DNA of 64,000 bases, from contig NC_063022.1 of NCBI RefSeq assembly GCF_020509005.1, forward strand, positions 1,674,001 through 1,738,000. The letters run 5' to 3'. The notes beneath the pieces were generated by a model that saw nothing but the letters and a program-made list of their open reading frames with translations, was not told the origin of the DNA and made no database searches. How positions within the stretch are numbered: the first letter of the stretch is position 1; each line of letters begins with the position of its first letter. Positions 1,300-64,000 of this stretch are shown here, in pieces. The position numbers and the translations under genes were made by a program. The stretch is from Fulvia fulva (Eukaryota > Ascomycota > Dothideomycetes > Mycosphaerellales > Mycosphaerellaceae).

Positions 1300-1376
1300 G
1301 GTCGACGACGAGAATCACCTGTACGTGGTGTCGGCTACGAACCTCTCGTCTAGCTACGAGAGAGCCAAGTATTCTC
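1300..1376 (+). ncRNA. HDV-like self-cleaving ribozyme at the exact 5' end of the leader
   Basis: Number the nucleotide at 1300 as 1. P1 pairs nt 1-7 (GGUCGAC) with 31-37 (GUCGGCU), including the G1.U37 wobble typical of HDV. P2 pairs 11-16 (GAGAAU) with 72-77 (AUUCUC). P3 pairs 18-20 (ACC) with 28-30 (GGU). P1.1 can form from G22-C39 and U23-A38. P4 is a perfect 7-bp hairpin, 44-50 (CUCUCGU) with 57-63 (ACGAGAG). The J4/2 strand reads AGCCAAG, comparable to GGCUAAG of antigenomic HDV, giving C66 (position 1365) as candidate catalytic base. Cleavage would fall just before G1300, the first base shared by all four leader copies. Such ribozymes are known at the 5' ends of R2, Baggins and L1Tc elements. 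RIP has damaged P3, P1.1 and P2 in the other three copies. The fold was found by eye and not tested. Confidence 0.8.
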
Positions 1377-2377
1377 ACGCTGGAGCGTCGTGGGCGCGAC
1401 GGGCGCGTAGCGTAGGCGAAGCCGCGGCGAACAGAGGACTACTAGCAAACCGGGTATGAAAACCATCCGACGAGCGTGTACTCGTGTCGGGAGCGAGTCC
1501 CTCTTCTTTCTACGTGTAAGAAGGGCGCGGAACCGTGGCCTATACGCTCGACAGGACACCTCTGGTATGAGTGCAGAATTTTCACCTCCGGAGACCGCAA
1601 ACCGAGCGGGCTAAGCGACGAACATTGGACGAGCGGACTACAGAACAACAACTGAGCGGACTATGCAACGGCGTCGAGCGGACTACGAAACAATCTGGTG
1701 TTTGCCAGCGGGCAATGCGGTGGGTAGGTGGACACGCGACGAAGCCTATAAGGGCCTGTTAAACACCCGGTATAGGAACGAGGGTTTTGCCTAAGGCACT
1801 GCCTGTCCCGCTACACAACGCACCTAGTCTGACATAGTAGATTGCGACGAGGAAAAGACGATAGCCTAAGCAAGGAAAAGACGGCTGTTAGGACGGGAAA
1901 AAGACGTACAATGCAAGTGGATTAGTTCTGTGATCGGGGAGGATCGAGGGCAGGGTGATAAGGAACTTCATATTGGTTAGTAGGTGGAAACGCAAGGAGT
2001 ACGCTGCCCGGCGTGGTGTGTGCCCCGAGCAAACCTGCGAGGCATGGACGGCCGCTTTCTAGAGATAGGCTGCGGTAACGCGAAGGGCGTCAAAACCTGG
2101 GGCGTGGTGTACACTGGCAGCGACGGCTGACACTGTCTGTACAGCCCGAGAGGACGGATGCGCATGTCGGTCAATAGAGAGCACTAAAGGGCTTAGGCCT
2201 ATGGAGGTGGATATTGGCTTAAGGAGCAAATAGGGAGGGAGGGCGTAGAGGGAAGCTTTTGCTCCGGGCTAACCTCTCGAAACGAGGCTACACGGTGGTG
2301 CTAGATGAGTGGGAAAGCGCGGTTAAGACTTGTCACCTTATCTCGTAGCTAGCTTGCTAAATACGATTCCTTCCTTG
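1300..2377 (+). other. Leader module, copy A (WEIRD-like non-coding 5' unit)
   Basis: This block begins GGTCGAC and ends in a CCTTCCTTG motif. It occurs four times in the window: here, 28819-29896, 35094-36170, and inverted at 26836-27912, always 1,077-1,078 nt long. What follows its 3' end differs in each copy (LINE-1 at the equivalents of 2378, 3039 and about 2552, and LINE-2), so it is a separate unit rather than the native 5' UTR of one LINE. It has no credible long ORF: the short frames are on both strands and are not conserved as coding. Its first 77 nt fold as an HDV-like ribozyme. It resembles the WEIRD part of Magnaporthe MINE elements in size and arrangement; sequence homology was not tested. 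Confidence 0.8.
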
Positions 2378-2496
2378 CCCTAGGACTAAGGGAGTTCTAC
2401 CTCATTCAATCTGGACAGCTTGAAGCTCTCTTCACCCTGTTTCTTCAGCTCCAAACGCCGCGGAGGTGCCTAGCTACATTAGGCAACTCCTAGGCA
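2378..2496 (+). other. LINE-1 5' untranslated region between leader and ORF1
   Basis: This short stretch is shared with copy B, whose LINE-1 homology begins at about 21866 with no leader. It is therefore probably the true LINE-1 5' end. Copy B carries an extra 200 bp here, between two ACCCTAT repeats. The stretch is absent from copies C and E, which join the leader further inside ORF1. Confidence 0.6.
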
Positions 2497-3774
2497 ATGG
2501 CAGCCCAGGCTACGGCACTAACGGCGCCTACGGCCCTATAGGCGAAGCCCCCCCAAGACAACTGGCAGCAACTTATAGAGGACGCAAAAAGCATGGAAAC
2601 TAACGATCAGCTCCCTTACCGGTCTCTACAGGTAATGATCACTCAGCTACGCACGGCGCTTGTACTGTCGTATCACCGAGGGCAACAAGAAATGAGGACG
2701 ACGTCCTAGGCGATTAGCAAGGCCACCCGGAATCAACACCCCTATAGCTAGGCATCGGTCGCGGCATCGATACCAGGCCCCCGCCCAACGCACGATGCAG
2801 TTACGATCCGCATTGCAGCAAAGGAAGACCAGGCCGAAGTTGCGAAGCTATCGAACAAGGAGCTCGCCTAACGAATCAACTAACTAGGGGTGGTCGCAGT
2901 GAACCAACAGTCCAACGGCACTCTACAGATCTATACTAGCTCTGCTACTGCTAGGAGGCACCTAGAGGCACAGCCACAGTGGGCATCTAAGGTTGCGGCA
3001 TTAGCGAAGGTCTTAACGAAACAATTCACGATCCTAGTCCACGACATGCCTAAGGAGTTTGACCCAACCAACCAGGGTCACCTACGCGCTCTCCAAGAGG
3101 ACAACCCGGTCACTCTTAACTCTCCAATCCAGAAGGCGACTTGGCTCCATAGGAAATGGCCAGAAGGCAAGAAGGCCTCGGCGCTAATAGTATGGCTACA
3201 AGACGCGAAAGCGGCGGATCTAGCGATAGAACAAGGCCTGGTCTGGCAATACAGCCTCAAGACAGTAGAAAAGCACTCCTCATCCTTTCGTGTCCTCCAA
3301 TGCTTCAAATGCCAACAGTATGGACACCAAACCTACACGTGCACAAACAAGCAGGCCTGCTCGAACTGTGTAGGAGACCATATGTCTAGGGACTGTACAT
3401 CGACTACGAGACGGTGCGCGAACTGTCCGGGGCACCACCCATCGTATAGTGCGGAATGCCCATAGCGGAAACTAGCGAAAAACAAGGCAATCACAAACAG
3501 AACCGTCGCCCCAAGATTCTACGGCGACCGTGAGGCTAGCCCACACCGGAACCAACTAGCGGCGGTCGGGCACAAGCGCCCTAGGGCCGAGAACGATGTA
3601 AAGGATGCGCAGCCTAGGGCGTACGGGAGGCCACGTGCTCTGCTAGCTGCGGCGAGGGAATCTAACCAGGCCCGGCTCCCCTTTAGTACACAGCCGATAG
3701 GCGTAGACCAGGACGCACAGGGCAGTAGGACACAGGACGATACAGAGGAAATGATTGTCGATGCCGATGACTAG
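2497..3774 (+). pseudogene. LINE-1 ORF1 (gag-like nucleic-acid-binding protein), RIP-broken
   Basis: The frame runs from ATG 2497 to TAG 3772-3774, 425 codons. It is interrupted by in-frame stops at 2539, 2707, 2749, 2869, 2881 and 3463, all TAG or TAA. The stop at 3463 is CAG in copy C, which shows directly that it is a C-to-T change and that the product ran past it. The middle part looks like a Tad1-type ORF1 RNA-binding region. Three CCHC zinc knuckles lie at about residues 269-322, the first starting CFKCQQYGH, then CSNC..H..DC and CANC..H..EC. The C-terminal quarter is Arg/Gln-rich and ends in an acidic tail. The family role is RNA binding and RNP formation. The last 8 nt overlap the ORF2 start in the string ATGACTAG, which suggests termination-reinitiation. 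The uninterrupted part is 2890-3465. Confidence 0.85.
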
Positions 3775-6700
3775 CCTCGACACGCTTAGCATCATCCAGT
3801 ATAACGTCAACCATAGCAAGGATATAGTCCAGAACCATTTCCTACACGAGGCGGACCCGCGCGTCCACCACGTCCTTGCAATCCAGGAGCCATGGATTAA
3901 CCCGCACCATAAGAGACCAACGACCTGCAAGTCACCAGGCTACACGACATGCCTACGAGGCGACGGCAGACCCCGCACGTGCTTCTATGTCAGCAAGGAC
4001 ATACTAGAATCCGACTGGGAGGTAGTGTACTACGCAGACGAAGAAGGCGGGGGCGATATTACCTCCCTCCACGTGGGTAGCACCTGGATACACAACCTAT
4101 ACATGCAACCGCCAGCCTCGAGGTCTAGCCGCGACCTAGGGGTCTGCAGACACCTAGACAGTGCGCTCAAGAGACAAGGGTGCCACATCGTAGTAGGAGA
4201 CTTCAACATACACCACCCTTCCTAGGAAAGCCTTATGCAGCCGCACCCTATAGCCGACGAAGTACTCGACTTGATGGCGAGCAACGCAATTGCCCTCAAT
4301 ACCCCGAAGGACCTGGGCACCTGGAAGAGAGGGGGACTCCAAGGCACGATCGACCTCTCCTGGATCTCAGATAGCTACTACCACACGGTAACCTACTGTG
4401 GGATCGAACATGAACTCGAGGCGTCGTCAGACCACATGCCAGTCAGGACCTCTATTGCGACACAGATACAACGCACACCAGCGAGAACCCCTAAGCCAAA
4501 CTGGGGAAAGGCCCACTGGGCCAACATCTAGGCGTACCTCGATGACTCCAAGAGGCTAGTCCAGATCGCGCAGCAGCAATACAACAGTAAAGACGAGATA
4601 GACGAAGCAGTCCAGGGGTTGACAGACGAAATAAGAAAAGCGACCTCACTTCACGTTCCGCTTGCCTAACCAACGACATGGTCCAAACCATACTGGACGC
4701 CGGAGTGCACTGCGGTAGTAAGAGAAGCAAGGAGAGCCCGCCGGGTGTGGACGAGCAGCCATAGCGAGGAGGCCTGGAACGTATACAGGGAGGCATGCCA
4801 ACAGAAGAAAGCCATAATACGGAGGGAGAAAGCAGTCGGCTGGAGGGCCACAGTGGAAGAAATCGCCGGCAAGCCAGAGAGGATGTGGAAGCTAGCGAAA
4901 TGGGCCCGACAGGACCCTACACAGGGCCCCTCCTTCTCTATCCCAGCGCTACAATCGCCTAGTGGCCCGGTTAGCGACCCCGAGGCCAAGGCGCGTCTAC
5001 TGGCTAGCAAGTTCTTCCCACCCCCAGTCGAGGCTGATCTAAGCGACATAAACAGCTCTACTCCCCTAGCCCCTAGCATCGCGGTCCAACAGGAGGTGTC
5101 CGAGGGAGAAGTTACCGCTGTGCTGAGGAAGTTGCCGGCGAAGAAAGCCCCGGGGCCGGATGGGATCCCAAACGAGCTACTAAAGAAGTGTAGAGATCAA
5201 CTAGCCCCAGCAGTTGCAGCGATCTTCAACGCCTGCCTACAGACCGGATACCACCCGATAGCTTTTAAACAATCGACGACAGTGGTCCTACGCAAGCCGC
5301 AGAAGGAAGACTATACGCAGGTGAAGTCGTACCGCCCAATTGCGCTCCTTAACACTCTTGGGAAGGCGCTTGAGAAGCTGGTTGCAACGAGACTCTCCGA
5401 GGCGGCAGAGGAACACTCCCTACTCCCGGACACCCAGATGGGTGCGCGCCCACAGCGATCGACGCTATCCGCGATGGAACTTATCACCTCTCAGGTAAAG
5501 GCCATCTGGTATAAGAATAGGGACAAGGTGGCTTCCTTACTTAGCCTAGACATATCGGGAGCCTTCGACTACGTGTCACACCCGCGGCTTCTCTACATCC
5601 TAAGGTCGAAAGGACTCCCTGAGTGGCTTGTCAACTTCGTACGGTCCTACCTCCAAAACCGCAGTACGTCGATCCTGGTCGGCCAGTACAGAAGCCCATT
5701 TCAAGCAGTCCACACTGGAATCCCGCAAGGCTCAACGCTAGCACCTATTCTGTTCCTCTTCTTTATGGCGACGCTGCTCCCAGCCCTAGAATCCCAGAAC
5801 ACCGCTGCGAGCGGCTTCGTAGACGACACAAACATCCTAGCGTGGTCTTCCTCGACTGAGGAGAACTGTAGGCTACTAGAAGAGAAGCACAAGATCTGCG
5901 AGGACTGGGCTAGGAGGCACGGGGCTCGGTTTGCCCCAGAAAAGTACAATCTGATACACTTTACGCGCCGGCCACGGTTCCACAATATGCAAGCTTCTAT
6001 CCAGATACAGGGGCACACGACTAACCCGGCAAATCAGCTCAGGATCCTCGGACTATAGGTGGACCCGGCGCTACGGTGGAGGAAGCACGTACAGGCAATA
6101 TTACGGAAAGCTGAACAGAATATGGCATCATGCCAGAGGCTCACTGCGTCCACATGGGGGGCGGACTTCCGGCAGTCACGACTTCTATATACGGCTATTG
6201 TACGGCCAGTCCTTACCTATGGCAGCCAAGTGTGGTCCTTAGGCGAGAGGGCCTGCCCATCGAAGGGACTCGTCGCGCCGCTAGCGAAGATCCAAAACCA
6301 ATGCCTAAGGAAGGTCACCGGGGCATAGAAGTCGACACCAACGAGGATGCTTGAGCACGAGACCGCTATACCGCCGATCGACCTATACATCCAGGGACTA
6401 CGGACCTCCTACATAGGCAAGTCGGCACAGTACCCAGTACAGAAGGTCATCGCCAGTGCAGTCGCAAGGGCCCGCGAATCAGTACCAGCGCACAAGGGCA
6501 TTCGACCCGGAAACGACCCGAACTACCGGGCAAGGGACGAACAGCTAGCAACACAATGGGAAGGTGAGAAATCGTTTGTAGAGCAACTATGGAAAGAGAG
6601 GTGGAACAACCAGGTTGTAGGGCATAGTGGACGCCCTCAGCCAGCGGGACAACCTAAGGAATGGTCAGCTACAAAATCCGCGGTCAAGCACCCCCCGAAG

Positions 6701-7078
6701 CTCATCCACTACCGCCTTACGAGGGCACAGAGTAGCATAGCAACCCAACTGCGAAGCGAACACATCGGCCTCCAGGGGTACCTATCATGGAGGAAGGTTC
6801 CAGGATACACGAATACTAGCTGCCCCTGCGGCTATCGCTCCCAGAACGTACGGCACGCACTCCTCGTCTGTCCGAGGTGGTCGCTAGGAAGGGGGGAGTG
6901 GATGGCAAAGGCGAGGAACCGGACGATTGGGGCACTTCTTAACAACGCTGAAGACCTACGGCGCATTACGAACTGGATACTAGAGAAGGGCTGGCTAGAA
7001 CAGTACCGCCTAGTAGGAGCAGTGCAGGAAGAGAGGACACGACGCAGCGCGACGAGACCGGCTAGGAGCGGGGGCTAA
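3767..7078 (+). pseudogene. LINE-1 ORF2: endonuclease-reverse transcriptase, RIP-broken
   Basis: One frame of 1,103 codons has stops at 4223, 4529, 4667, 6056 and 6326. The N-terminal AP-type endonuclease shows QYNVN near residue 12, IQEPW near 40, VVGDFN near 143 and SSDHMPV near 219. The RT follows: SYRPIALLN near 519, SLDISGAFD near 595, GIPQGSTLAP near 651 and the catalytic box FVDD near 685. The C-terminus carries a CCHC motif, CPCGY...H....C, at about 1,019-1,036. I find no RNase H domain between RT and this finger. The stop at 6326 (TAG) is TAT (Tyr) in copies B and C, a T-to-G change that RIP cannot make. Length is identical to copy C (3,312 nt), so no indels separate them. The protein would perform target-primed reverse transcription. 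The start at 3767 is chosen for the ATGACTAG overlap; an ATG at 3761 is also in frame. Confidence 0.9.
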
Positions 7079-7249
7079 CGGGGTAGTGACATGGACTACG
7101 TACGTTCAGAGGGAAAGCTAATCTAGACAAGGAGTAGTCGGGGGCGGGAAGGGTTTTCACCTATTCGGGTTTCCCTTTGTACATAACAATAGATATATAC
7201 CTGCATAGGCCGGATAGGGTCCTAGAACAGGGGAATGACAAATCTATCT
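7079..7249 (+). repeat. LINE-1 3' UTR and (TCTA)n tail
   Basis: About 150 nt of non-coding sequence follows the ORF2 stop and ends in a short TCTA tandem tail, shared almost base for base with copy C (33937 to about 34109). In this family the tail takes the place of poly(A), as in several fungal and insect LINEs. Confidence 0.75.
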
Positions 7250-10200
7250 ATCTATTAGTATATTTAGCTTACCATACTTATACTATTACTATAGAGTCTC
7301 GTAGCTTATACCTAAGGTCTATTATACGTTATATAAATATATTTATAGACTCTACGTCTAATCGCTATTTATACGGAAGTAGTTATATAGGGAGATTAAG
7401 TTTAGTATCTATATAACGTAGGTTCTTACTAATGTTCGCTATAAAAGGACTTACGCTAGTCGTTTCGGAGACGTAGTCGTTTATAGTGAACTCTATAAGT
7501 AGGAGCTTATCTAGCTAGTTATCCTAAGCGTAACTAGTAAACGTACGTAGGTACTATTCTATTATCTTATTAGTATTCTCGCTTTGACTATTAGTCTTAG
7601 GGTAATAGCCGGTTAAGATCTTACGGTTAATTTATAGCGACTCGTAGAGGCGTCCCTAGAAGGCTAATACCTATTAAGGACCACGATCCGACGTAATTGT
7701 CTTTAGTAGACTATGTCGGGAGAAGATATACTTTACGTAGATATATACGATATACTCCGCTATCATTTCTAATACTAGGATATAATGCCGCTCCTTACCT
7801 AAACGGTCTATAACTATAAGTACGTTCTTATAGTACTAACTATCTACCGTGTACTTGGCCCTTAGTAGTTCGATAACGAAGTTTAAGGTAACGTCGTCCT
7901 ACGTATCGAATAGGACTAGTAGTAGAGTAAGTAGTCTATATTAAGGCTCATTAATACTACGGCTATTACGGTATATACGGTATGCTCGTACGAAAGATCT
8001 AATAAACCGTATTATTCGTAGCTATATATAGTAACGTAATACTAACCGGCTCGTAGTTATCTTACCGGCGTGTCCTATAGTAGGTATATCGTAGAAGGCC
8101 TTAACGATACGTATACGTATAGTATTTTCCTTATCTTTGGTAGGTAGGATAAAGAGACTATAACCGCTATATCTGTTCTTAATATAGATTATCCTATCGA
8201 CTAGTATCGCGTACTTATCGTTAATCTTATTCTTTCGTAGTAGTTTAATAGGTTCGCCTACTACTAACTAGGTCGTAGCTTCGATTATATCGTCCTGTTC
8301 GTATAGCTTACTAATGTCGGCTAATAGCGCTTCGTCTATTACTACTCCTTCGACTTCGGATACGCTTAGCCGTAGGATTTAGCTAGCGCTAATAGATAAG
8401 AAGTGTTCTAGTTTAAGTAGTATACGATCCTACTATACGTACCGCGGATCTGATTTGTTATATAGAATCGCGTCCTATAAACGTCTAGTAAGGCTGTCTA
8501 GTTTAGCTCCTTAAACACCTAGACGATATATAATCTTAAAGAAGAATTATAAGAGGAACTCGGCCTATCTTACTTATCGTCTATTTAGTTACTTAGAAGT
8601 TATAAAGTATTCGAGGTTCTTATAGTCGCTATATACTAGTACTAGGTGGCCGCTTAGATTAGTAAAGTTCTTAAAGTCTAGTTCGTCGATATTACTAGCT
8701 ATAAGTTCGGGCTTCTACTCTTTAAATACTTTAACAATAGCAAGTAGTTCCTTAATATAAATGTCGTAATTATACTCCTACGGGCTCATCTTCTTAGATA
8801 GGTATACGATTGGCCTTAGAATGTTGTCCTTATCGTATTACAATAGGACCGTAGCCGTAATAAAGTCACTCGTATCCGTTTTAAGTACTATTCTACGTCC
8901 TAGGACAAACATTGCTAATATCGTACCTTTAGTATCGGTAAAAGCTTACTTTAGTCCGTCGAATGCCTTCTAACATTCCTCTGTCTATTACTAAGGGCAG
9001 TCCTTCTTAGTCAGCTTTACTATAGGTAATACTATCTTACTATAGTCCTTAATAAAGCGCCGATAGAACCCGGAGAACCTATTAAACGTAAGGACATCTT
9101 TTACGTTTACTAGTGTTCCCTATTCCCTTATAGCTTATACCTTAGCTAGGTCTTTTAAGACTCCGTCCTTACCGATAATAAGGCCTAGGTATTTAGTAGA
9201 TTAGGTATAAAACTTATATTTAGTAATGTCGAGTTATAGGCCGGCTTTACTACATTTACGATATACCTTCTTAATATACTCTATATGCTCCTTAAGAGTG
9301 CCGCTAAAGATGAGTATATTATCTAGGTATGCCGACGTAAAGTCGTTAAGGAACTCTCGTAGTATATTGTTAATATAAGACTTGAAAGTACTAGGGCCAT
9401 TACATAACCCGAATAGTATTACTAGGTATTCAAACTGTCTATATCGTATTATAAATACGGTCAGCTATTCGGAGCCCTCTACTATTCTAATACGATTGAA
9501 AGCGGTAATGACATCTAGCTTATTAAAGTACTTCTTACTAGTAATACGATTGAGTATGTCTTATATTAAGGGTATAGGATACCTAGACTTGATCGTACGT
9601 TCGTCAACTTATCTATAGTCAATATAGACTCTTAATCCACCTCCTAGTTTCTTAATAATAAGCACGGGTAATAAAGTATCTACTCTGCCTTCGTATCTAC
9701 GAATACCCTTTTAGGCTAACTACTCTTAGACCTAGTACGCGATGACTTCATCCTCCTAGTTTAATATCCGGTAGGGCCTACTAAAAGGCGGTATAGTTCC
9801 TAGCTTTAGCTTAATCTCGTAGTTAATACTAGGCCTATATAGTAGAAGCTCCTTCGTATCGTATTTAGAGAAGCAATATACGAATTCGTGATATATAGGG
9901 AGAAGGTAGTCCTTTAGATCGATAGTCTCCTCCTTCTTACGTATAAATTTGTCTATATCGGCTTATATATACATCTTGTAGGTAGAGAGAGTCGGACTAA
10001 CGCGTTACGCTACTAGTACGAACGCCGCTATACGTATATCAAGTCGCTCGATAGTCTTGTTATTAGAAAGCATCCTATAGCCGGTATTAGGCGAGTATGT
10101 CGCTATATTACGTATATTACGGGCGCTTATAGCGTAGGTAGTAGGTAGGTCTATAGCACGTATATCGCTAGGTTACTATAGCTCGTTCTTATTAAAGATA

Positions 10201-26128: not shown

Positions 26129-27912
26129 AGGCTATATTACTAGATTAGGCCTTGTTCTATTACTAGGTCCGCCGCTTTCGCGCCTTATAGCTATATAATT
26201 AGCGCTAAGGCCTTCTTACCTTCTAGCTATTTCGTATAGAGCTAAGTCGCCTTCTAGATTAGGGAGTTAAGAGTGACTAGGTTGTCCTCTTAGAGAGTAC
26301 GTAAGTGACCTTAGTTAGTTAGGTCGAACTCTTTAGGTATATCGTAGATTAGGATCGTAAATTACTTCGTTAAGACCTTCGCTAATACCGCAACCTTAGA
26401 TACCTATTATAGCTACGTCTCTAGGTACCTCCTAGTAGTAGTAGAGCTAGTATAGATCTATAGAGTACCGTTAGACTATTAGTTTACTACGACTACCCCT
26501 AGTTAGTTAATTCGTTAGGCGAGCTCCTTATTCGATAGCTTCGTAACTTCGGCCTAGTCTTCCTTTACTACAATACGGATCGTAACTATATCGTACGTTA
26601 GGCGGGGGCCTAGTATCGATACCGCGACCGATACCTAGCTATAGGGGTGTTAATTCCGGGTGGCCTTACTGATCGCCTAAGACGTCGTCCTTATTTCTTA
26701 TTACCCTCGGTAATACGATAGTATAAGCGCCGTACGTAGCTAAGTAATCATTACCTATAGACATCGATATAGGAGCTAATCGTTAGTTTCTATACTTTTT
26801 ACGTCCTCTATAAGTTACTACTAGTTGTCTTAGGGTAAGGAAGGAATCGTATTTAGTAAGCTAGCTACGAGATAAGGTAATAAGTCTTAACCGCGCTTTC
26901 CTACTTATCTAGTACTACCGTATAGCCTCGTTTCGAGAGGTTAGCCCGGAGTAAAAGCTTCCCTCTACGCCCTCCCTCCCTATTTACTCCTTAAGCTAAT
27001 ATCTACCTCTATAGGCCTAAGCCCTTTAGCGCTCTCTATTAACTAATATACGTATCCGTCCTCTCGGGCTATATAGATAGTATTAGCCGTCGCTACTAGT
27101 ATATACTACGCCCTAGGTTTTAACGCCCTTCGCGTTACCGTAGCCTATCTCTAGAAAGCGGCCGTCTATGCCTCGCAGGTTTGCTCGGGGTATACACTAC
27201 GCCGGGTAGCGTACTCCTTACGTTTCTACCTACTAACTAATATAAAGTTCCTTATTACCCTACCCTCGATCCTCCCCGATTATAGAACTAATCTACTTAT
27301 TTATACGTCTTTTCCCCGTCCTAATAGCCGTCTTTTCCTTACTTAGGCTATCGTCTTTTCCTCGTCGTAATCTACTATATTAGACTAGGTACGTTATGTA
27401 GCGGGATAGCTAGTACCTTAGGTAAAACCCTCGTTCCTATACCGGCTACTTAATAGGCCCTTATAGGCTTTGTCGCGTATCTACCTACCTACCGTATTGC
27501 CCGCTAGTAAATACTAGATTGTTTCGTAGTCCGCTCGACGCCGTTGTATAGTCCGCTTAGTTATTATTCTATAGTCCGCTCGTCTAATGTTCGCCGCTTA
27601 GCCCGCTCGGTTTACGGTCTCCGAAGGTGAAAATTCTATACTTATACTAGAGGTGTCCTATCGAGCGTATAGGCTACGGTTCCGCGCCCTTCTTATACGT
27701 AGAAAGAAGAGGGACTCGCTCCCGATACGAGTATACGCTCGTCGGATAGTTTTCATACCCGTATTACTAGTAGTCCTCTATTTACCGCGGCTTCGCCTAC
27801 GTTACGCGCCCGTCGCGCCTACGACGCTCTAGCGTAAGAATACTTAGCTCTCTCGTAGTAAGACGAGATGTTTATAGCCGACACTATATATAGGTGATTC
27901 TCGTCGTCGACC
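26129..27912 (-). mobile_element. LINE-1 fragment E (leader plus partial ORF1), inverted
   Basis: On the minus strand, 27912 to 26836 is the leader (1,077 nt). It is followed directly by LINE-1 ORF1 from the equivalent of about 2552 in copy A to about 3250, where it meets the end of copy B head-on at about 26128. The ORF1 part is heavily RIPed. The ribozyme at 27836-27912 keeps P1 and the P4 core but has lost pairs in P3. Confidence 0.85.
26836..27912 (-). other. Leader module, copy E
   Basis: Starts GGTCGAC at 27912 and ends at the usual CCTTCCTT motif at 26836. Length is 1,077 nt. It is joined at its 3' end to ORF1 of LINE-1 about 175 nt further in than copy A. Confidence 0.8.
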
Positions 27913-28818
27913 GACGCGTAATAATAGGAATAGACAGAACTATAGAACTCGAAGAACGCGTAGAGTTATATTAGAATATAGAATACGGTAAGGCGTATAG
28001 CGCGTAAATACCTAGAGAACGTAACGCGGCGACATTATTAGTAGGTAGTCGCGCGCTCGTAGACAGTTAGGAAATAGGCATCGTTACGCCTCCCCCGAAC
28101 CTAGATAATATAACTTTATAGACAAACGACGGTATACTACCGCTACTAAAGCCTAAGGGTAAAGGTAAGTAGCGTATATCTCTTTTCCCCGACCTGTCCT
28201 CTTTTCCTTAGAGTTAGATATAGGACGATAACCGGCGGGTTATAGTAGACACCGGTGTCGCGCTATAATAGGAAATTAATAAAGCTTACTAGAAGGCCTT
28301 CGAGTAAGAAGGAGGTAGTACGATTAACTTTATAGAACTGTTCGAGTTTAAGCTTAAAGAGAACCTAGGCGGCGACCTAGGCGAGGTATACCTATTACTC
28401 GACGAGGTAGAGCACATTCTCGTATCCGAATACTAGAATGTTATACTAGACAAACTTACGACCCTCGTATCCTAGTAACCGAAGACTACCTACGACTTTG
28501 TACTCTAGGTAGTAAATATAGCGATTACTAAAGGTAGACAACTCGATATAATAGAGCGAGCTAATAACCTCTAGAACACTAAGTATACTACGCTATATAC
28601 CGAGTATAACCGTATCTATAAGATACTACGAAGCGAGGAGGCTATAATATAGAAGATAGCCGTAGACCTAAAGAGTAAGAAGGATTATAACCTAGTAAAG
28701 TTATAAGAGGAGAAGAAGAAGGTATAGGATACCGAAGCTAAGAACTAGGCTCTATAGAAGGAGGTTAACGATCTAAAGACTCGACTCTAAGCTACTAAAG
28801 ACACTATATAGAATAGAG
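27913..28818 (+). pseudogene. Gypsy-4 gag-like fragment, left part
   Basis: A plus-strand degenerate frame with charged, coiled-coil-like content, for example a KEKKKVQDTEAKNQA-like stretch near 28710. It is interrupted at 28818 by LINE-1 copy C and resumes at 34125 after the target duplication. The left edge abuts leader E. It belongs to a family different from Gypsy-2 and Gypsy-3. Confidence 0.55.
28804..28818 (+). repeat. Target-site duplication of copy C, left
   Basis: CTATATAGAATAGAG, repeated exactly at 34110-34124 on the other side of copy C. Its first bases could also be counted as part of the TCTA tail. Confidence 0.85.
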
Positions 28819-29896
28819 GGTCGACGACGAGAATCACCTATACGTAGTGTCGGCTACGAACCTCTCGTCTAGCTACGAGAGAGCCAAGTATTCTTACGCT
28901 AGAGCGTCGTAGGCGCGACGGGCGCGTAGCGTAGGCGAAGCCGCGGCGAACAGAGGACTACTAGCAAAACGGGTATAAAAACTATCCGACGAGCGTGTAC
29001 TCGTGTCGGGAGCGAGTCCCTCTTCTTTCTACGTGTAAGAAGGGCGCGGAACCGTGGCCTATACGCTCGATAGGACACCTCTGGTATAAGTACAGAATTT
29101 TCACCTCCGGAGACCGTAAACCGAGCGGGCTAAGCGACGAACATTAGACGAGCGGACTACAGAACAACAACTGAGCGGACTATACAACGGCGTCGAGCGG
29201 ACTACGAAACAATCTAGTGTTTGCTAGCGGGCAATGCGGTAGGTAGGTGGACACGCGACGAAGCCTATAAGGGCCTATTGAACACCCGGTATAGGAACGA
29301 GGGTTTTGCCTAAGGCACTGCCTGTCCCGCTACATAACGCACCTAGTCTGACATAGTAGATTGCGACGAGGAAAAGACGATAGCCTAAGCAAGGAAAAGA
29401 CGGCTGTTAGGACGGGGAAAAGACGTATAATACAAGTGGATTAGTTCTATAATCGGGGAGGATCGAGGGCAGGGTGATAAGGAACTTCATATTGGTTAGT
29501 AGGTGGAAACGCAAGGAGTACGCTGCCCGGCGTAGTGTGTGCCCCGAGCAAACCTACGAGGCATAGACGGCCGCTTTCTAGAGATAGGCTACGGTAACGC
29601 GAAGGGCGTCAAAACCTAGGGCGTAGTATACACTAGTAGCGACGGCTGATACTGTCTATACAGTCCGAGAGGACGGATGCGCATGTCGGTCAATAGAGAG
29701 CACTAAAGGGCTTAGGCCTATAGAGGTGGATATTGGCTTAAGGAGCAAACAGGGAGGGAGGGCGTAGAGGGAAGCTTTTGCTCCGGGCTAACCTCTCGAA
29801 ACGAGGCTACACGGTGGTACTAGATGAGTAGGAAAGCGCGGTTAAGACTTGTCACCTTATCTCGTAGCTAGCTTGCTAAATACGATTCCTTCCTTG
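28819..29896 (+). other. Leader module, copy C
   Basis: 1,078 nt, collinear with copy A without indels that change its length. The ribozyme (28819-28895) has G-to-A changes at nt 22 and 28 and C-to-T at nt 77, which weaken P1.1, P3 and P2. P1, P4 and the J4/2 strand are intact. Confidence 0.8.
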
Positions 29897-30632
29897 CTAC
29901 GACATGCCTAAGGAGTTTGACCTAACTAACTAGGGTCACCTACGCGCTCTCTAAGAGGACAACCCGGTCACTCTTAACTCTCTAATCCAGAAGGCGACTT
30001 GGCTCTATAGGAAATGGCCAGAAGGCAAGAAGGCCTCGGCGCTAATAGTATAGCTACAAGACGCGAAAGCGGCGGATCTAGCGATAGAACAAGGCCTGGT
30101 CTGGCAATATAGCCTCAAGACAGTAGAAAAGCACTCCTCATCCTTTCGTGTCCTCTAATACTTCAAATGCCAACAGTATGGACACCAAACCTACACGTGT
30201 ACAAACAAGCAGGCCTGCTCGAACTGTGTAGGAGACTATATGTCTAGGGACTGTACATCGACTACGAGACGGTGCGCGAACTGTCCGGGGTACTACCTAT
30301 CGTATAGTACGGAATGCCTACAGCGGAAACTAGCGAAAAACAAGGCAATCACAAACAGAACCGTCGCCCTAAGATTCTACGGCGACCGTGAGGCTAGCCT
30401 ATACCGGAACTAACTAGCGGCGGTCGGGCACAAGCGCCCTAGGGCCGAGAACGATATAAAGGATGCGCAACCTAGGGCGTACGGGAGGCTACGTGCTCTG
30501 CTAGCTACGGCGAGGGAATCTAACTAGGCCCGGCTCCCCTTTAGTATATAGCCGATAGGCGTAGACCAGGACGTATAGGGCAGTAGGACATAGGACGATA
30601 TAGAGGAAATGATTGTCGATGCCGATGACTAG
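29897..30632 (+). pseudogene. LINE-1 ORF1, 3' part (copy C)
   Basis: Begins inside ORF1 at the position equivalent to 3039 of copy A, right after the leader. It carries the knuckle region and the C-terminal tail. It keeps CAG at 30322 where copy A has its TAG at 3463. It ends in the ATGACTAG overlap at 30625-30632. With its start codon lost it could not make ORF1 protein. Confidence 0.8.
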
Positions 30633-34109: not shown

Positions 34110-34124
34110 CTATATAGAATAGAG
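34110..34124 (+). repeat. Target-site duplication of copy C, right
   Basis: Exact repeat of 28804-28818. Confidence 0.85.
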
Positions 34125-35093: not shown

Positions 35094-36170
35094 GGTCGAC
35101 GACGAGAATCACCTATACGTAGTTTCGGCTACGAACCTCTCGTCTAGCTACGAGAGAGCCAAGTATTCTTACGCTAGAGCGTCGTAGGCGCGACGGGCGC
35201 GTAACGTAGGCGAAGCCGCGGCGAATAGAGGACTACTAGTAAAACGGGTATAAAAACTATCCGACGAGCGTATAATCGTGTCGGGAGCGAGTCCCTCTTC
35301 TTTCTACGTATAAGAAGGGCGCGGAACCGTGGCCTATACGCTCGATAGGACACCTCTAGTATAAGTGTAGAATTTTCACCTCCGGAGACCGTAAACCGAG
35401 CGGGCTAAGCGACGAACATTAGACGAGCGGACTATAGAATAATAACTAAGCGGACTATACGACGGCGTCGAGCGGACTACGAAACAATCTAGTATTTACT
35501 AGCGGGCAATACGGTAGGTAGGTAGATACGCGACAAAGCCTATAAGGGCCTATTAAGTAGCCGGTATAGGAACGAGGGTTTTACCTAAGGTACTAGCTAT
35601 CCCGCTACATAACGTACCTAGTCTAATATAGTAGATTACGACGAGGAAAAGACGATAGCCTAAGTAAGGAAAAGACGGCTATTAGGACGGGGAAAAGACG
35701 TATAAATAAGTAGATTAGTTCTATAATCGGGGAGGATCGAGGGTAGGGTAATAAGGTACTTTATATTAGTTAGTAGGTAGAAACGTAAGGAGTACGCTAC
35801 CCGGCGTAGTGTATACCCCGAGCAAACCTACGAGGTATAGACGGCCCCTTTCTAGAGATAGGCTACGGTAACGCGAAGGGCGTCAAAACCTAGGGCGTAG
35901 TGTACACTAGTAGCGACGGCTAATACTGTCTATATAGCCCGAGAGGACGGATACGTATGTCGGTCAATAGAGAGCACTAAAGGGCTTAGGCCTATAGAGG
36001 TAGATATTGGCTTAAGGAGTAAATAGGGAGGGAGGGCGTAGAGGGAAGCTTTTGCTCCGGGCTAACCTCTCGAAACGAGGCTATACGGTAGTACTAGATA
36101 AGTAGGAAAGCGCGGTTAAGACTTGTTACCTTATCTCGTAGCTAGCTTACTAAATACGATTCCTTCCTTA
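35094..36170 (+). other. Leader module, copy D
   Basis: 1,077 nt, same two ends as copies A, C and E. The ribozyme here has an additional change at nt 31 (first base of the P1 3' strand), so P1 is damaged. Confidence 0.8.
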
Positions 36171-44145: not shown

Positions 44146-44579
44146 ATAGAAGAAAGGTATTCGTTCGTACGCGATCGGATCGATAGGAGGTGAACTGAAC
44201 GCGAGGTTAATAGTAGAGAGAATCGCTGTCCACTAGAAAGCGAGGAAAGTCGGTCGTAAGGATCGTGTTTCTAAGACACTGTCTATACCTCTTTTAGGGG
44301 AGGGTGTTCTGAGACACTACGGCTCTCTTAGACGGAACAGTTAGTTAGTAAGGACAACGCGATGTTCTAAGAGCAACGCTTCCTAGTAGGCTCGCCTACC
44401 TTTCTAAGGTATTAGTATAGGCTTCTCTTCTAACCCTCTAAGTTAGTCAAAGTCTAATAGTACCTTACTAGGCTCTTTCACGACTAACATACACCTATAG
44501 CGAGCTGTAGCTTCCTATATAATACGGAGGCGGCCTCTAGTCTGCCCTTCCTTTTAGTATTATAGAGGAATAACTACTA
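44146..44579. other. RIPed spacer between Copia-M and pogo P3
   Basis: No gene. It has two imperfect copies of a TTCTAAGACACT-like unit (near 44270 and 44310). CpA is partly retained. Confidence 0.4.
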
Positions 44580-45139
44580 ACGTACTTTACTACCGAGCGG
44601 GCTATACTACCGAGCGGGCTACTTTTACTAAGAACTGTACCACTTCTATAGATATAGCTATACAACTACTATTATAGCGTATATTGTCTTTAAACGAGGC
44701 CAAACTGACCTTAGCTGTCTAGGCTACGAAACGCGACGCGACAATCACAAATCGACTTGCTATAAAGGTATACGACGCGTCTCGAACTATACTAGAGTAT
44801 CGATTAAATAGACGACCTCCTCGGGGTGACTACGAGCCTAATTCGAAGAAGCTTATAGAGCTAGAAGAGAGGGTGATACTTAAGCATATACTCGAGCTAG
44901 ATCTTATAGGTTTCCCGCTATTAAAGGCTAGTATACGAGTAATAGCCGATTTATTACTATAAGAGAAGGTTCTTAAGCCCACTAGTCTTAATTAGACAGA
45001 TAGGTTTATTAGGCGGTATCGTAAGCTAAAGGTTTGTATAATACGTAGATATGATTATTAGCGAGCCCTAATAGAAGATCTAGACGTTATTAAGAAGTAG
45101 TTCTTACTTATACGTAATATAAAGGAGAAGTATAGTATC
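44580..45139 (+). pseudogene. Fot1/pogo transposon P3, 5' half with terminal repeat
   Basis: The 5' terminal repeat begins ACGTACTTTACTACC after a TA and contains two tandem CCGAGCGGGCTA units. The transposase N-terminus follows: a helix-turn-helix with EAKLTLAV and LNRRPPRG segments, then a CENP-B-type region with ERVILKHILELD, DRFIRRYRKLK and RRYDYQRALIED. At 45139, after GTATC, the frame is cut by the 5' LTR of Copia-P. The 3' half is not found on the other side. Confidence 0.8.
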
Positions 45140-45374
45140 TATTAATATGTAGCATCTCAAAGGGAGTTAACAATTAGGAAGTGATCTAGTAGCCTAAGGC
45201 ATCTACGATAACTTAGCTTATAGGGAGATACCTTCTCTCCCCTTTAGCTTAGATAGACATCTAATACAATTAACACATTAGTTCCTAATATATTGCTATA
45301 TACTCGTGCTATTAGTCAGTTAAAGATTGATCTCTTACTCCACTCCGCTACTATTAATCCGTACCTATTTAATA
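45140..45374 (+). repeat. Copia-P 5' LTR
   Basis: Begins TATTAATATGTAGC (from TGTTAAGATGTAGC), ends CCTATTTAATA. 235 bp, matching the other three family LTRs. Confidence 0.85.
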
Positions 45375-46860: not shown

Positions 46861-49800
46861 CTAGAGACAATGTCTGCTGATAATAAGTATAATAAAGTGG
46901 CTTACTTAACTATAGAAGTCTAAGGCAAGTTCCTCTCGTTAGAGTAGTTACTTAACTCCTATACTTTATCCTATATAACTGACTAAAGCTGCCTCTTTAG
47001 ATCTATAACTCCCTTAATAAGGAAGAAATGGATCAAAGTAGGAGGTGGGTTTTTATTAGCTACTTATATTAGGAATGTAGAGATGAGTAGGAGAGCTAGT
47101 AGAAAAGTTGTTTTAGAAGAGGTCCTACTTATACCTAAGCTAGGAGTAAACCTAGTTTTATAGAACTAGTTTAGTAAGTAGTTTAGTGTTCAACCTCTAT
47201 TATTTTCTCTTATTTCCCCCTCTAGTAAGACTATTGTCTAGACAAAGCTCCTTAGGGGGGTTCTATTTATTAATAAGATTTCTCCTCTCCTACAAGAACG
47301 GGCACATTACTCATTATGTGCACTACTAATAGAGAATGCCTTTGTAACTACTCAATTAGAGACCGACCTAAAGTAGTAGGAGCTTTAGTATAGAAGATTT
47401 ATACACTTTAGGAAGAGTTTGCTCTATAATCTTTATAAGGTAATAGACTTGAAAGAACCTATTCCTATCCCTAAGGATAGCTTTTACTAGTATAGAGTAT
47501 GTTCAATAGTAAAGATGAAGAAGTATAAAGACAAAGTTATAGAGAGAAGACCTAAAAGATTTGCCCTTATATCTATTAACATATATAGCCTACTACTAAT
47601 CTCAAGACTAGGATTTAGATACTAGCTTAAGATTGTTAATAACTTCTCTAGGAAGAAGTAGACCTTTCCTCTTAGGAAAAGAGAAGATACTCTAGTTGCT
47701 CTCTAGAACTAGAAGATCAAAGTAGAGAGGAAATTATTAGCGTAGCTAAAAGTAGTAAGGCTTGACAATATAAAAGAACTTATTATATTAGTAAAGCAGT
47801 AGAAGAAGGATTTAGGGATTAGGCTCGAGCCGACTAAGGTATATAACTCTCTATAGAATAGACTAGTTAAGAGGTCAATACAAACCTTAGAGGACTCTAT
47901 AAGGGCAATGCTTAAAGAGGCTAAAATGCCGGTTGAATTTTGGCCTAAAGCACTAGAGGCCTAAACTTATATAAGGAACAAACTGCTAAATGGCCTAGAT
48001 TACGATAGGTTGAAGGTTTCACTAGATAAGGCTTTTGATAGTATCAAACCGACTATCAACTATTTGAAAGTTTAGGGATACAAAGCTATTGTCTATATAC
48101 ACACAAGATCCTAACCTCAATAGGTAAGAAGTAACAAGCTAATAAATAGGGGTAAAGAAGTAGTGTTTATTAGGTATATTAGAAATGTAGCTAAAGCCTA
48201 GCTCTTTTAGGAACTAGACATAAGAGCTGTTAAACAACACATATATATAGACTTCTTTAAGGACTAGTCTAGAGGTGATATAGGTCTTAATGTTCTAACA
48301 TTGAATCTACTAAGTAGTGTACTAGCTAGGAAGCCCTTAGGAAGGCCGAGGAAGAACGTATCCTTAGGACAATCTACCTACTATTTAGGCGTCTATTAAA
48401 GCACCCCCGAAATAGATTAGCCAATTAAGAGCCCTAAAGTCGCTTAGCCGAGGAAGCTATTTATGTAACTTCCCTAACCTCCGGAGAACGTAGGGGAATT
48501 TCAGAAAATCGATTAGCTAATTGAGAGAAGCTCCCTAGATCCCTAGGAAATAGACGTTACTAGGTTATAAGTGACGGTCCCTAAATCATCCCTTAGAAAG
48601 AGAAAGGCTAACTATAATGTTGAGGGCTATAACATAAAACAGAAAGCCCTAAAACCGATAGTCCCTAAGCCCGAACTAACTACTAAAGTAGGAGAAGTAA
48701 TAGACCTCTTAGAGAACCTTACTACTTTTTACTAAGCTTTCTTTATAGCTATGCAATTAGTAGACAGTTCAATACTATAGGATAGCGAATTCCTAGAAGA
48801 AGTTAAGGACATGGCCTTTATAGTAACTATAGAAGCTATTATATATAAGCAAGAGGTCCTAATTCCAGAATCCTATAAGGATGCTATAAATGACAAGAAA
48901 TAGGGACATCTTTAGAAGGAAGTAATCCAAAAGGAACTAGATGCTCTATAGAGTAACAACACCTAGGAAAATTCTGTTCCACTAAAAGGAGCAAATCTGG
49001 TTACATCAAGATGGGTCTTTGATATTAAGAGAAGCATTAATGGAGCTATTGAAAAGTTCAAGGCTAGACTAGTTGCAAGGGGCTTCTCACAGAAGTTTAG
49101 TGTTGACTTTATAGAGACATTTGCACCTACAGTAAGACAGGACACCCTTAGGGTGTTTATAGCTATTGTGTATAAGAAGGATCTTCATCTTTACCAAGTG
49201 GATGTGAACAATGCATTTACAGAAAGCACCCTCCATAAAGACATCTTTATGTTACCACTACTAGGAGTTAAGCTTCTACTAAACATAGTATTCAAAATCC
49301 TTAAAAGCTTATATAGACTTAAGCAAGCAGCTAGAGATTGGAATCAACTCTATATATCAAAGCTTAGAGAGATTAGATTCACACAGTTAGAAGTGGATCT
49401 ATACCTACTTATCTATAAGAAGAGGGAGATCATAATCCTTATATATATAGATAACATTCCAATTGCTACACTAAAGTTAATAGATATTCTCTAGTTTAAA
49501 AGAGAGCTTAGCAAGATCTTTAAGATCAAAGATCTAGGTAAACCTGAAAAGATCCTTAGCATAAGAGTCATAAGGGACAGGAAGAGAGGAATCCTAAAAC
49601 TTGACCAAGGACACTTTGTTAGGGACAGCCTAGCTAAGATAGGAATGAACTATAAGAAGGCAGCACCTACACACTCACCTATAGACAGCTATAAGGCCCT
49701 CAAACCTTCAAGCCATATAGATAAGAGGTGTAATAAGGCAGAGTACTAGAGTATTAATAGTACTTAGATGTAGCTAGTAACAATTATAAGGCTAGACATT

Positions 49801-50913: not shown

Positions 50914-53001
50914 ACGTACTTTACTATCGAGCGGGCTACTTTTACTCAGAACTATACTACTTCTAATTTAATTACGACGGTATCTTAACACGACAATAGC
51001 CTATAGAATCGTTACTAGGAGGACAATTCCTCTTTAGATTCTTTACTATCTAGTAAGTCTACTTAATAGGTACGTATAATATACCCCGACTCGCTATATC
51101 GCTTATAGCGTCGTAGCCTTAGTACTAGCCGAACACTATCTAGCGACTCTCTACTCACTTCCTACCTCCTAGTATCCTCTAGAGGTATTAATTACGACGC
51201 CTTATCAAAGGTTAGAGACCCTCTAGACTAAATATACTTACGCTTTCGTACTTTCTGCTATATAATGGCCTCGTTAGACTTACGTAGCTTACTAATCTCG
51301 CTTCGTATAAGAGCTATCTAATACGCTATCCCTCTACTCCCTTTCACAAGCTAATATACCCCTTCCTATAACGAGTTTAGCGATAAACCTGCCCGGGCAC
51401 GCATTTTATTTGTTACTAGTGTCGATTAAGAGTCGAATTCTTTTATAGTTCGTAGTGTCTTTGACTCCTAAGGGGTAGAGTCCGGAGCTATAGGGGTTAG
51501 CGTACATAGCTTGATATTAAGCTTGTCTATCACTACCTATAGATTAAATAGAACTAAACTAGCGCCTCTAAAGCTCGATAGGATGTTCTCCTGTCTAAAT
51601 ATAGCGTTATAGGCTACCCGGAAGGCGCGTAGGAACTCTACTTTATCGATATAAGTAATACGCTAGCGTACTAAGCCCGAGAGCCAAGTACCGTATACCT
51701 TCTTTAAAGGCGAATAGTAACCTATATCTAATAGCTAGAGTAAGTACGAGGCGTACGATAGTATATATAGGGCTAAGATCTTGTATTCCTTATATAGATT
51801 CTAGAATGCCTTCGAGTTATAGCTCTCGTAGCTATCGATAATAAGCAGTCTCTATACCCTAGTCGTACGAGCTATAGTATACTTCTAGAAGTGCTCTAGC
51901 TACCGTATACCGAACTTATTGTTAGTCTAGCCGTTCTCTATTAGCCCGATTATCTAGTCTAGACCCAAGTTGCCGTCTTAGTACTAGGTACTAATGTACT
52001 ATTTCCCTATAAGGATAACGTAGGGTAGGAGCGCTATTCCGTCTATATAGATAGTCTTAATTACTATTACCTATTCTCTATTACCCTATGAAACCACCTT
52101 CCTCTTTCTACTACGCCTTTCTAAACCGGTAACGACGCTCTAAGACGTAATAATACCTATTATAAACCCTGTCTCGTCGAAGTTGTAGGTGTCCTAGTCA
52201 AGGATACTATTAAATAGGTACGAGTTACGTAGTAGTAGAAGACGGCGGATTATACGAAAGACGAAGAAGGACCTAATAGGATAGCGTATATCTATATAAA
52301 GTATCGCTAGTATTAGTATAGGTAGATACTAGGTGTCCGGATGTTTACTAGCCTATAGGCTAGTAAACCCTACTTACGTAATCTACTTATATAACATACC
52401 TACACCTATATACTTGACCTACGGCCTATATGTTCTTAACAGATACTATACTTCTCCTTTATATTACGTATAAGTAAGAACTACTTCTTAATAACGTCTA
52501 GATCTTCTATTAGGGCTCGCTAATAATCATATCTACGTATTATACAAACCTTTAGCTTACGATACCGCCTAATAAACCTATCTGTCTAATTAAGACTAGT
52601 GGGCTTAAGAACCTTCTCTTATAGTAATAAATCGGCTATTACTCGTATACTAGCCTTTAATAGCGGGAAACCTATAAGATCTAGCTCGAGTATATGCTTA
52701 AGTATCACCCTCTCTTCTAGCTCTATAAGCTTCTTCGAATTAGGCTCGTAGTCACCCCGAGGAGGTCGTCTATTTAATCGATACTCTAGTATAGTTCGAG
52801 ACGCGTCGTATACCTTTATAGCAAGTCGATTTGTGATTGTCGCGTCGCGTTTCGTAGCCTAGACAGCTAAGGTCAGTTTGGCCTCGTTTAAAGACAATAT
52901 ACGCTATAATAGTAGTTGTATAGCTATATCTATAGAAGTGGTACAGTTCTTAGTAAAAGTGGCCCGCTCGGTAGTATAGCCCGCTCGGTAGTAAAGTACG
53001 T
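50914..53001 (-). mobile_element. Fot1/pogo transposon P2, complete, RIPed, carrying a solo LTR
   Basis: Terminal inverted repeats start ACGTACTTTAC at both ends and are flanked by TA (50912-50913 and 53002-53003). The right repeat has two tandem CCCGCTCGGTAGTA units, the left only one. The transposase is on the minus strand: helix-turn-helix and CENP-B-type part about 52900-52447, solo LTR 52208-52441, then the DDE domain with DTYNFDETGF near 52170, LLIID near 51835 and LLQLLDIGYYSPLKK near 51720. All stops are RIP-type. Confidence 0.85.
52208..52441 (-). repeat. Solo LTR (Copia-M-like) inside pogo P2
   Basis: 234 bp, minus-strand start TGTTAAGAACATATAGG, end CCTATTTAATA, flanked by GATAC at 52203-52207 and 52442-52446. 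Related along its length to the Copia-M LTR at 39452-39676. Removing it and one GATAC restores the transposase frame between a KYSI segment and DTYNFDETGF. Confidence 0.85.
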
Positions 53002-53003
53002 TA

Positions 53004-53321
53004 GTAAAAACAATTGATAAAGTATATAAGTTAGTCGTACTAAGACAAAATTCCTAGCTTACTAGTGTTTCTAGCTTACTAGTACTTTACGTTACTCTTC
53101 ATAAGCCCGTATAATAATTTCTAATATAAATAACGTAATAGCTCTAAGTATTACGAATATAGGTTAGTAGGTATATCGTACGGTACTAAGACTAACTTAG
53201 TATATACTAAGCTAGTCGAGATAATAGTACGGCAATACTACCGAGACACCGTACGAATAGTAGGAGCGACTTAGAGGACCTAAAGTCGCTTAGCTAGTTA
53301 GTACAAGACTATTAGAGGAAC
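53004..53321. other. RIPed spacer ending in the left target duplication of Copia-Q
   Basis: Contains a tandem CTAGCTTACTAGT pair near 53060-53090. No gene. GGAAC at 53317-53321 is the target duplication of Copia-Q. Confidence 0.5.
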
Positions 53322-63747: not shown

Positions 63748-64000
63748 GAACGATGTGCAACTTGATGGTCAATGGTTCGCATCGTGCAAACGAAAAGTTC
63801 GACTGGGAAACAGTCCGCCTTCGTGCTGCGTCCATCAGGCCTTTGTTCATATGCACATTTCCGGCCAGAGCAAGCGTTTCGCGGAACACAAAGAAGTGTT
63901 GTAAGCACCCGCAAAAATGGTTGGTCGAGCATATACGACAGGTCTATCGGTATTGAGACAGGCCTCTGCTGGTGAGTAAGACATGTCACAGCCTCAGGTT
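63748..64000. other. Upstream region of the 486-aa gene
   Basis: Several short overlapping frames on both strands, none convincing. It should hold the promoter and 5' UTR of the minus-strand gene. No TATA box stands out. Confidence 0.4.

Follow-up and report, generated by a model that had tools for sequence, protein, structure and literature searches.

A predicted HDV-like ribozyme at the head of a WEIRD-like non-coding RNA joined to several LINE families in Fulvia fulva

Introduction

What sets the first nucleotide of a non-coding RNA that ends up joined to truncated LINEs? The question is raised by position 1300 of a 64,000-nucleotide stretch of Fulvia fulva contig NC_063022.1 (hereafter the window), at which a 1079-nt unit, the leader, begins upstream of a 5'-truncated LINE (Table 1; nt numbers below count from the first base of the leader). 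The leader has no long open reading frame, only 15 overlapping stop-to-stop frames of 50–86 aa, and its first letter, G1, is constant in the four window copies, as the initial annotation had pointed out, while the base before it differs in each (T, G, A and C).

Both halves of the question have precedents. In Magnaporthe, MINE elements are chimeras of the WEIRD RNA and the LINE MGL, of which 33 were described with the donor motif GCC*A/U; WEIRD figures in that 2007 paper as an abundant RNA of which neither the gene nor the function is known, and the sections that describe it say nothing on what sets its ends (Gogvadze et al., PMC2104539). HDV-like ribozymes sit at the 5' ends of R2 and L1Tc/ingi LINEs (PMC3774820, PMC4035085), and active HDV variants are known in fungi from a study whose text contains neither the word 'retrotransposon' nor 'transposable' (PMC5640933).

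Here we propose that positions 1300–1376 form a self-cleaving HDV-like ribozyme that heads a 1079-nt non-coding RNA working like the Magnaporthe WEIRD RNA, a reading to which we assign a probability of roughly three in four. HDV-like ribozymes at LINE 5' ends and in fungi, and WEIRD–LINE chimeras, are known already (PMC3774820, PMC5640933, PMC2104539); what would be new is a ribozyme at the head of a captured RNA, a union that we did not find in the open-access PMC literature searched. That open-access literature yielded no report of a ribozyme for WEIRD or MINE.

Results

An HDV-like fold at the start of the leader

As far as the letters of the DNA can tell, all pairs of a nested double pseudoknot of five helices are present in 1300–1376, where a structural descriptor also matches. 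P1 joins nt 1–7 to nt 31–37 (GU, GC, UG, CG, GC, AU, CG), P2 joins nt 11–16 to nt 72–77 through six Watson–Crick pairs and P3 joins nt 18–20 to nt 28–30; P1.1 consists of G22–C39 and U23–A38, and P4 of seven pairs between nt 44–50 and nt 57–63. The core letters of HDV-like ribozymes are there as well, with C66 in J4/2 AGCCAAGU and UGUACGU in L3, against UCUACGU in the Rfam model RF02682. HDV-like ribozymes need a 5' purine at the cleavage site (PMC11331408), and the base in question, G1, is a purine that lies at the base of P1 and pairs with U37. The predicted cleavage falls between 1299 and 1300. Every element that the initial annotation had drawn, from P1, P2, P3 and P1.1 to the 7-bp P4 and the J4/2 cytosine at 1365, was found again, and we regard the fold, at the level of sequence, as confirmed and correctly placed.

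Table 1. Positions of the leader, its fold and its copies in the window
Feature	Position	Strand	Basis or details
Leader, non-coding unit of 1079 nt, WEIRD-like RNA, constant ends	1300..2378	+	copy comparison
HDV-like ribozyme fold (P1, P2, P3, P1.1, P4, J4/2)	1300..1376	+	pairs checked, lettered descriptor match, RF02682 13.1 bits
P1 5' strand	1300..1306	+	pairs with 1330–1336
P2 5' strand	1310..1315	+	pairs with 1371–1376
P3 1317–1319/1327–1329, L3 UGUACGU 1320–1326	1317..1329	+	P1.1 = 1321–1338 + 1322–1337
P4 hairpin, 1343–1349/1356–1362	1343..1362	+	pair check
J4/2 AGCCAAGU, candidate catalytic C at 1365 (nt 66)	1363..1370	+	pair check; GCUAAGA at RF02682 counterpart
5'-truncated LINE (fam2) of copy A, CTAT-repeat end	2379..7255	+	endonuclease piece 3755–4225, reverse transcriptase piece 4670–6058
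Leader copy, RIP-type changes, then LINE fam2	26837..27912	-	no target duplication at LINE end
Leader copy, RIP-type changes, then LINE fam2	28819..29897	+	15-bp target duplication 28804–28818 + 34110–34124
Leader copy, RIP-type changes, then LINE fam1	35094..36170	+	target duplication not found

Like the fungal HDV variants, the fold has one extra C between P2 and P3 (C17 here); typically, in those variants, a C–G pair occupies the cleavage site and P4 contains a loop E, whereas the leader has G1–U37 and a plain 7-bp P4 (PMC5640933). Its closest counterpart in Rfam, RF02682, shares the same helices, an identical P3, an L3 one letter off and the J4/2 pattern GC(U/C)AAG (GCUAAGA there, GCCAAGU here). 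The first P1.1 pair is C–G in RF02682 and G–C in the leader, a two-sided change, and the two differ in the letters of P1, P2 and P4 and in the length of J1/2.

The description of an intact ribozyme holds for copy A, at 1300, and fails for the other three window copies, which carry RIP-type damage: the copy at 28819 has lost pairs 20–28 and 22–39, that at 35094 has lost 7–31 in addition to these two, and that at 27912 on the minus strand has lost 20–28 together with the CG of L3. Elsewhere too, RIP-type damaged copies break pairs, 20–28 most often in a tally that leaves out the P4 rows, and one copy (L035) lacks C66. These breaks are silent on selection, since RIP-type damage is not expected to respect structure. 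Among 38 unRIPed copies, none varies in nt 1–77, an invariance that is partly an artefact of selection because the copies were chosen by exact match to nt 1–36; with 59 variable sites over the 1079 nt in these copies, only about 2 would be expected in nt 37–77. The in-genome variation observed in nt 1–77 is either RIP-type or found in damaged copies, and the genome-wide copy comparison put forward in the initial annotation accordingly speaks neither for nor against the pairs.

Covariance models and chance expectation

A covariance-model search of the window and the genome, which the initial annotation had put forward as a check, found nothing in the window at the Rfam gathering score. When the segment 1250–1450 was searched to E 10, the single match was RF02682 (HDV-F-prausnitzii), which starts on 1300, spans 1300–1369 over the whole model and scores 13.1 bits (E 3.5), below the cut-off of 44. 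Across the genome, the same model matched three other places at 19.3–20.9 bits (E 4.2–9.8), above the 13.1 bits of the leader; we take these as noise, and no leader match is among those listed in that search. RF00094 gave no match in the genome to E 10.

Chance expectation was gauged on dinucleotide shuffles with a strict descriptor that asks for a 7-bp P1, a 3-bp P3, a 2-bp P1.1, a minimum of 5 bp in each of P2 and P4, and HDV-like nesting; matches that also carry the conserved letters, CG in L3 and CNA in J4/2, are called lettered. Shuffles of the window (10.2 Mb) produced 14 matches and those of the leader (9.39 Mb) produced 8, for a total of 22 structural and no lettered matches in 19.6 Mb. 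The RF02682 consensus, which served as the positive control and has a longer J1/2 than this strict version allows, escaped it. A widened descriptor with J1/2 of up to 10 nt recovers the F. prausnitzii consensus and gave 30 matches (none lettered) in 12.8 Mb and 42 (one lettered) in 15.3 Mb, or 72 structural matches and one lettered match in 28.1 Mb of shuffles. On both strands of the real window, it matches at 9186 (not lettered) and at 1300 (lettered), the lettered match beginning on the first base of the element. From the shuffle counts, a structural match on a given base would therefore arise with a probability of about 3e-6 and a lettered one, estimated from a single match, of about 4e-8; these rates are lenient to the candidate because both descriptors were drawn after it was known.

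Folding energies, which were computed free of pseudoknots and hence leave the double pseudoknot outside the score, do not stand out, with z −0.15 for a 77-nt piece, −0.61 for a 70-nt piece and −0.83 for a 101-nt piece. For the 70-nt piece, the best structure consists of P1 and P4; that of the 77-nt piece does without P1, at −21.5 kcal/mol versus −19.2 for P1, P3 and P4 together.

The predicted cleavage site is the boundary of the element

The genome of 67.17 Mb in 14 contigs holds 142 exact copies of leader nt 1–36. Among 52 copies whose first 16 letters match exactly, the sequence before G1 is unrelated and all flanks are distinct, the base at −1 being A in 19, T in 13, C in 11 and G in 9, and a TATA or TATTA lies at −20 to −7 in 50 of them. 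Of 20 loci of 10 kb, 18 carry a target duplication of 12–16 bp that abuts G1 and recurs at the CTAT tail of the LINE, some of these duplications overlapping the tail; two loci (L011, L021) have none. All 20 leaders chosen by their 3' end, 7 of them with changes in nt 1–77, extend to nt 1. The claim that the predicted cut coincides with the 5' boundary of the element is borne out by the unrelated flanks and the flush duplications. In the window itself, no target duplication was found at a LINE end for the copies at 1300, 27912 (minus strand) and 35094, and its absence at copy A counts against our reading of a ribozyme-headed unit.

A boundary of this kind could also be drawn by transcription. 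Suppose that the leader is a non-coding RNA of the host, transcribed from a promoter that starts at GG. Its fixed start would then suffice to account for the constant G1 and the boundary, and the fold would be either fortuitous or a structure that guards the end but does not cleave. Such a reading gains from Rfam scores under the cut-off and from a ribozyme activity that is only predicted, and is challenged by a lettered match that occurs once per 28.1 Mb of shuffles and yet falls on the boundary base, albeit for a descriptor drawn post hoc. We consider it unlikely. A self-cutting ribozyme at the start of the leader would explain why the copies have an identical first letter, and we continue with this preferred reading.

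The leader is separate from the LINEs that it precedes

The 3' end of the leader, ..TTCCTTCCTTG(C), is as constant as its start, with 195 exact 32-mer matches in the genome and varied sequence beyond. LINE-like sequence lies somewhere in the first 0.3–1.5 kb downstream in 47 of 48 leader copies and within 240 nt downstream in 33 of 40. The LINE encodes an endonuclease (PF03372) and a reverse transcriptase (PF00078); Podosphaera aphanis supplies the three best-matching protein relatives, the top one being 52% identical over all 462 aa. Eight leaders are without a clear LINE match: the downstream sequence of three (L080, L086, L092) resembles the start of ORF1 by eye, one (L034) overlaps L080 at 98%, one (L053) shares sequence with L074 by eye, two (L059, L084) are unplaced, and in the last (L085) the leader is followed by leader nt 297 onward and then by LINE fam2.

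Four LINE 3'-end types together account for 1141 exact ends in the genome, so that leader ends and LINE ends stand at about one to six (195 versus 1141), damaged copies being missed in both counts. When seven upstream regions of fam2 were aligned, three shared the start TCATCGATC.., which is unlike the leader, and the others diverged nearby; fam2 copies that extend farther upstream thus appear to begin with non-leader sequence.

Of 85 junctions, 58 were kept, 6 at the first bases of a reference and 21 lacking a close match being left out. The 58 junctions, placed on a LINE or leader reference, represent 38 distinct donor sites, at which position −2 is a purine in 36, position −1 a pyrimidine in all 38 and position 0 a C in 37. 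The trinucleotide RYC occurs at 35 of the 38 sites, compared with 871 of 13733 in the LINE references; the independent donor signal is R–Y, because position 0 overlaps the last C of the leader. LINE-derived sequence starts at RY|C immediately after the leader's final nucleotide, and the join carries no poly(A). The break points, for example those of L033, L051 and L083, would mark where the LINE RNA stops or is cut.

In the simplest picture, that of the initial annotation, the leader would be the 5' UTR of one LINE and the chimeras would multiply as one element. Several insertions do have a junction in common, but such junctions come with different leader haplotypes (for example L033/L051, L004/L040 and L043/L052), which points to repeated switching at hot spots. 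Furthermore, one leader end meets 38 distinct donor sites in several LINE families, LINE ends far outnumber leader ends, and fam2 copies reaching farther upstream appear to begin otherwise. This picture is disfavoured, and we hold it to be very improbable. To judge from the copies, the leader is a separate unit whose constant 3' end is fused to LINEs of several families at many points of truncation, and a ribozyme at its head would therefore define the 5' end of a captured RNA. The idea of a chimeric retrotransposon with a ribozyme 5' end accordingly stands as regards the chimeric retroelement and has to be amended in that the leader is a 1079-nt unit of its own, not the 5' part of the LINE.

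The element is also not a LINE of the R2 or L1Tc type with its own 5' ribozyme, although it works like one. In R2 and L1Tc/ingi, as here, an HDV-like fold lies at the 5' end of the element with the predicted cut at or near the boundary; there, the ribozyme is part of the LINE's own transcript, whereas here it would head a separate RNA joined to several LINEs (PMC3774820, PMC4035085).

Two sets of short repeats lie in the leader interior and may bind protein: four copies of GAGCGG(A/G)CTA at 1604–1691, spaced about 24 nt apart, and three copies of AAAAGACG at 1846–1906 with 23-nt spacing.

Proposed template switching and likeness to MINE

The fixed ends, RY|C joins and flush duplications of TATA-rich targets are the expected traces of a template switch. 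Ribozyme cleavage of any upstream transcript, 5' of G1, would yield a 5'-OH end enclosed by the double pseudoknot, and leader templates would in consequence all end at the same G; the folded 5'-OH end may also shield the leader RNA, as has been argued for R2 templates (PMC11331408). A LINE reverse transcriptase would then jump from its spent LINE RNA template to the 3' end of the leader RNA, copy the leader to its first base and give a chimera that is inserted with a target duplication and that would carry the ribozyme again. End-to-end template jumping was described for the R2 reverse transcriptase in 2004 (cited in PMC2104539). One locus (L085/L095/L096; G000:C3, about 1271600–1274160, minus strand), composed of a whole leader, leader nt 297–1079 and LINE fam2, is, as we read it, a chimera of two template jumps with a second leader as donor.

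The leader chimeras are built like MINE, with a full-length RNA as the 5' part, a truncated LINE in the same orientation as the 3' part, and target duplications. In both systems the non-coding RNA measures about 1.1 kb (1113 nt for WEIRD, 1079 nt for the leader) and is joined, at full length and directly, to a 5'-truncated LINE, junctions fall at hot spots, a double-jump chimera occurs and no solo copy was found (PMC2104539). The donor motifs are similar, not identical (GCC*A/U versus RY|C), and the systems differ in scale, with 33 chimeras there against 195 exact leader ends and at least four LINE 3'-end types here; the account of MINE, in the sections that we draw on, mentions no ribozyme (PMC2104539). 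The published WEIRD primers, our only WEIRD query, showed no similarity to the leader.

A solo source gene was not clearly found among the 88 of 195 exact leader ends examined. One candidate solo leader (L086) was rejected on the ORF1-like look of its downstream sequence. Evenly spaced leader ends on C1 near 8.83 Mb, considered as a leader array, proved to be a tandem duplication of a 4667-bp leader–LINE unit (L032; G000:C1:8825600–8831600), in which two stretches are identical over 1334 nt (two of three units compared).

A ribozyme at the 5' end would account for the fixed 3' end only if the precursor were head-to-tail. This brings in a further reading, in which the leader would be an RNA of the retrozyme or viroid kind: a single ribozyme would cleave a head-to-tail precursor and so create both ends, and the RNA would spread because LINE reverse transcriptases accept its 3' end. 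Generalized, WEIRD-type RNAs would be ribozyme-processed LINE parasites: one HDV-like ribozyme would free both ends from a precursor that is multimeric or circular, reverse transcriptases belonging to several LINE families would be offered the 3' end in mid-synthesis, and each insertion would reinstall the ribozyme. Two fixed leader ends joined without poly(A), no clear solo leader among the copies examined, and a second leader that can act as donor, the jump again landing on the leader 3' end, all fit. On the other side, one RIP-tolerant pattern allowing up to 25 nt between units found no head-to-tail junction in the genome, the minus strand has no ribozyme match, the first 1000 nt show no extra folding stability (z 0.70), and a source gene may exist among the other 107 of 195 leader ends. 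We see the retrozyme-like origin as improbable, slightly more so than a promoter-set end, and the wider notion of WEIRD-type parasites as equally speculative. A search of viral contigs with one exact 20-mer of the leader returned nothing, and for a viroid-like agent as such, given the z of 0.70 and the lack of a minus-strand ribozyme, nothing tested lends support.

If the preferred reading of a ribozyme-headed captured RNA is true, the 5' end of a WEIRD-type RNA would be fixed by a ribozyme that begins on its first base, and processing by 5' ribozymes would extend from the LINEs' own transcripts to an RNA captured by several LINEs through template switching. With 142 exact starts of the leader and 38 distinct sites of switching, the genome offers a rich natural record of LINE template jumping.

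Other features of the window

Three further observations concern the rest of the window. An inverted repeat of 571 nt (44575–45145 and 52436–53006) is 100% complementary, whereas many other window repeats are RIP-damaged. Positions 48967–49494 match a copia-type reverse transcriptase (RVT_2), and 62287–63768 on the minus strand hold a 493-aa open frame with no Pfam match at E 0.001.
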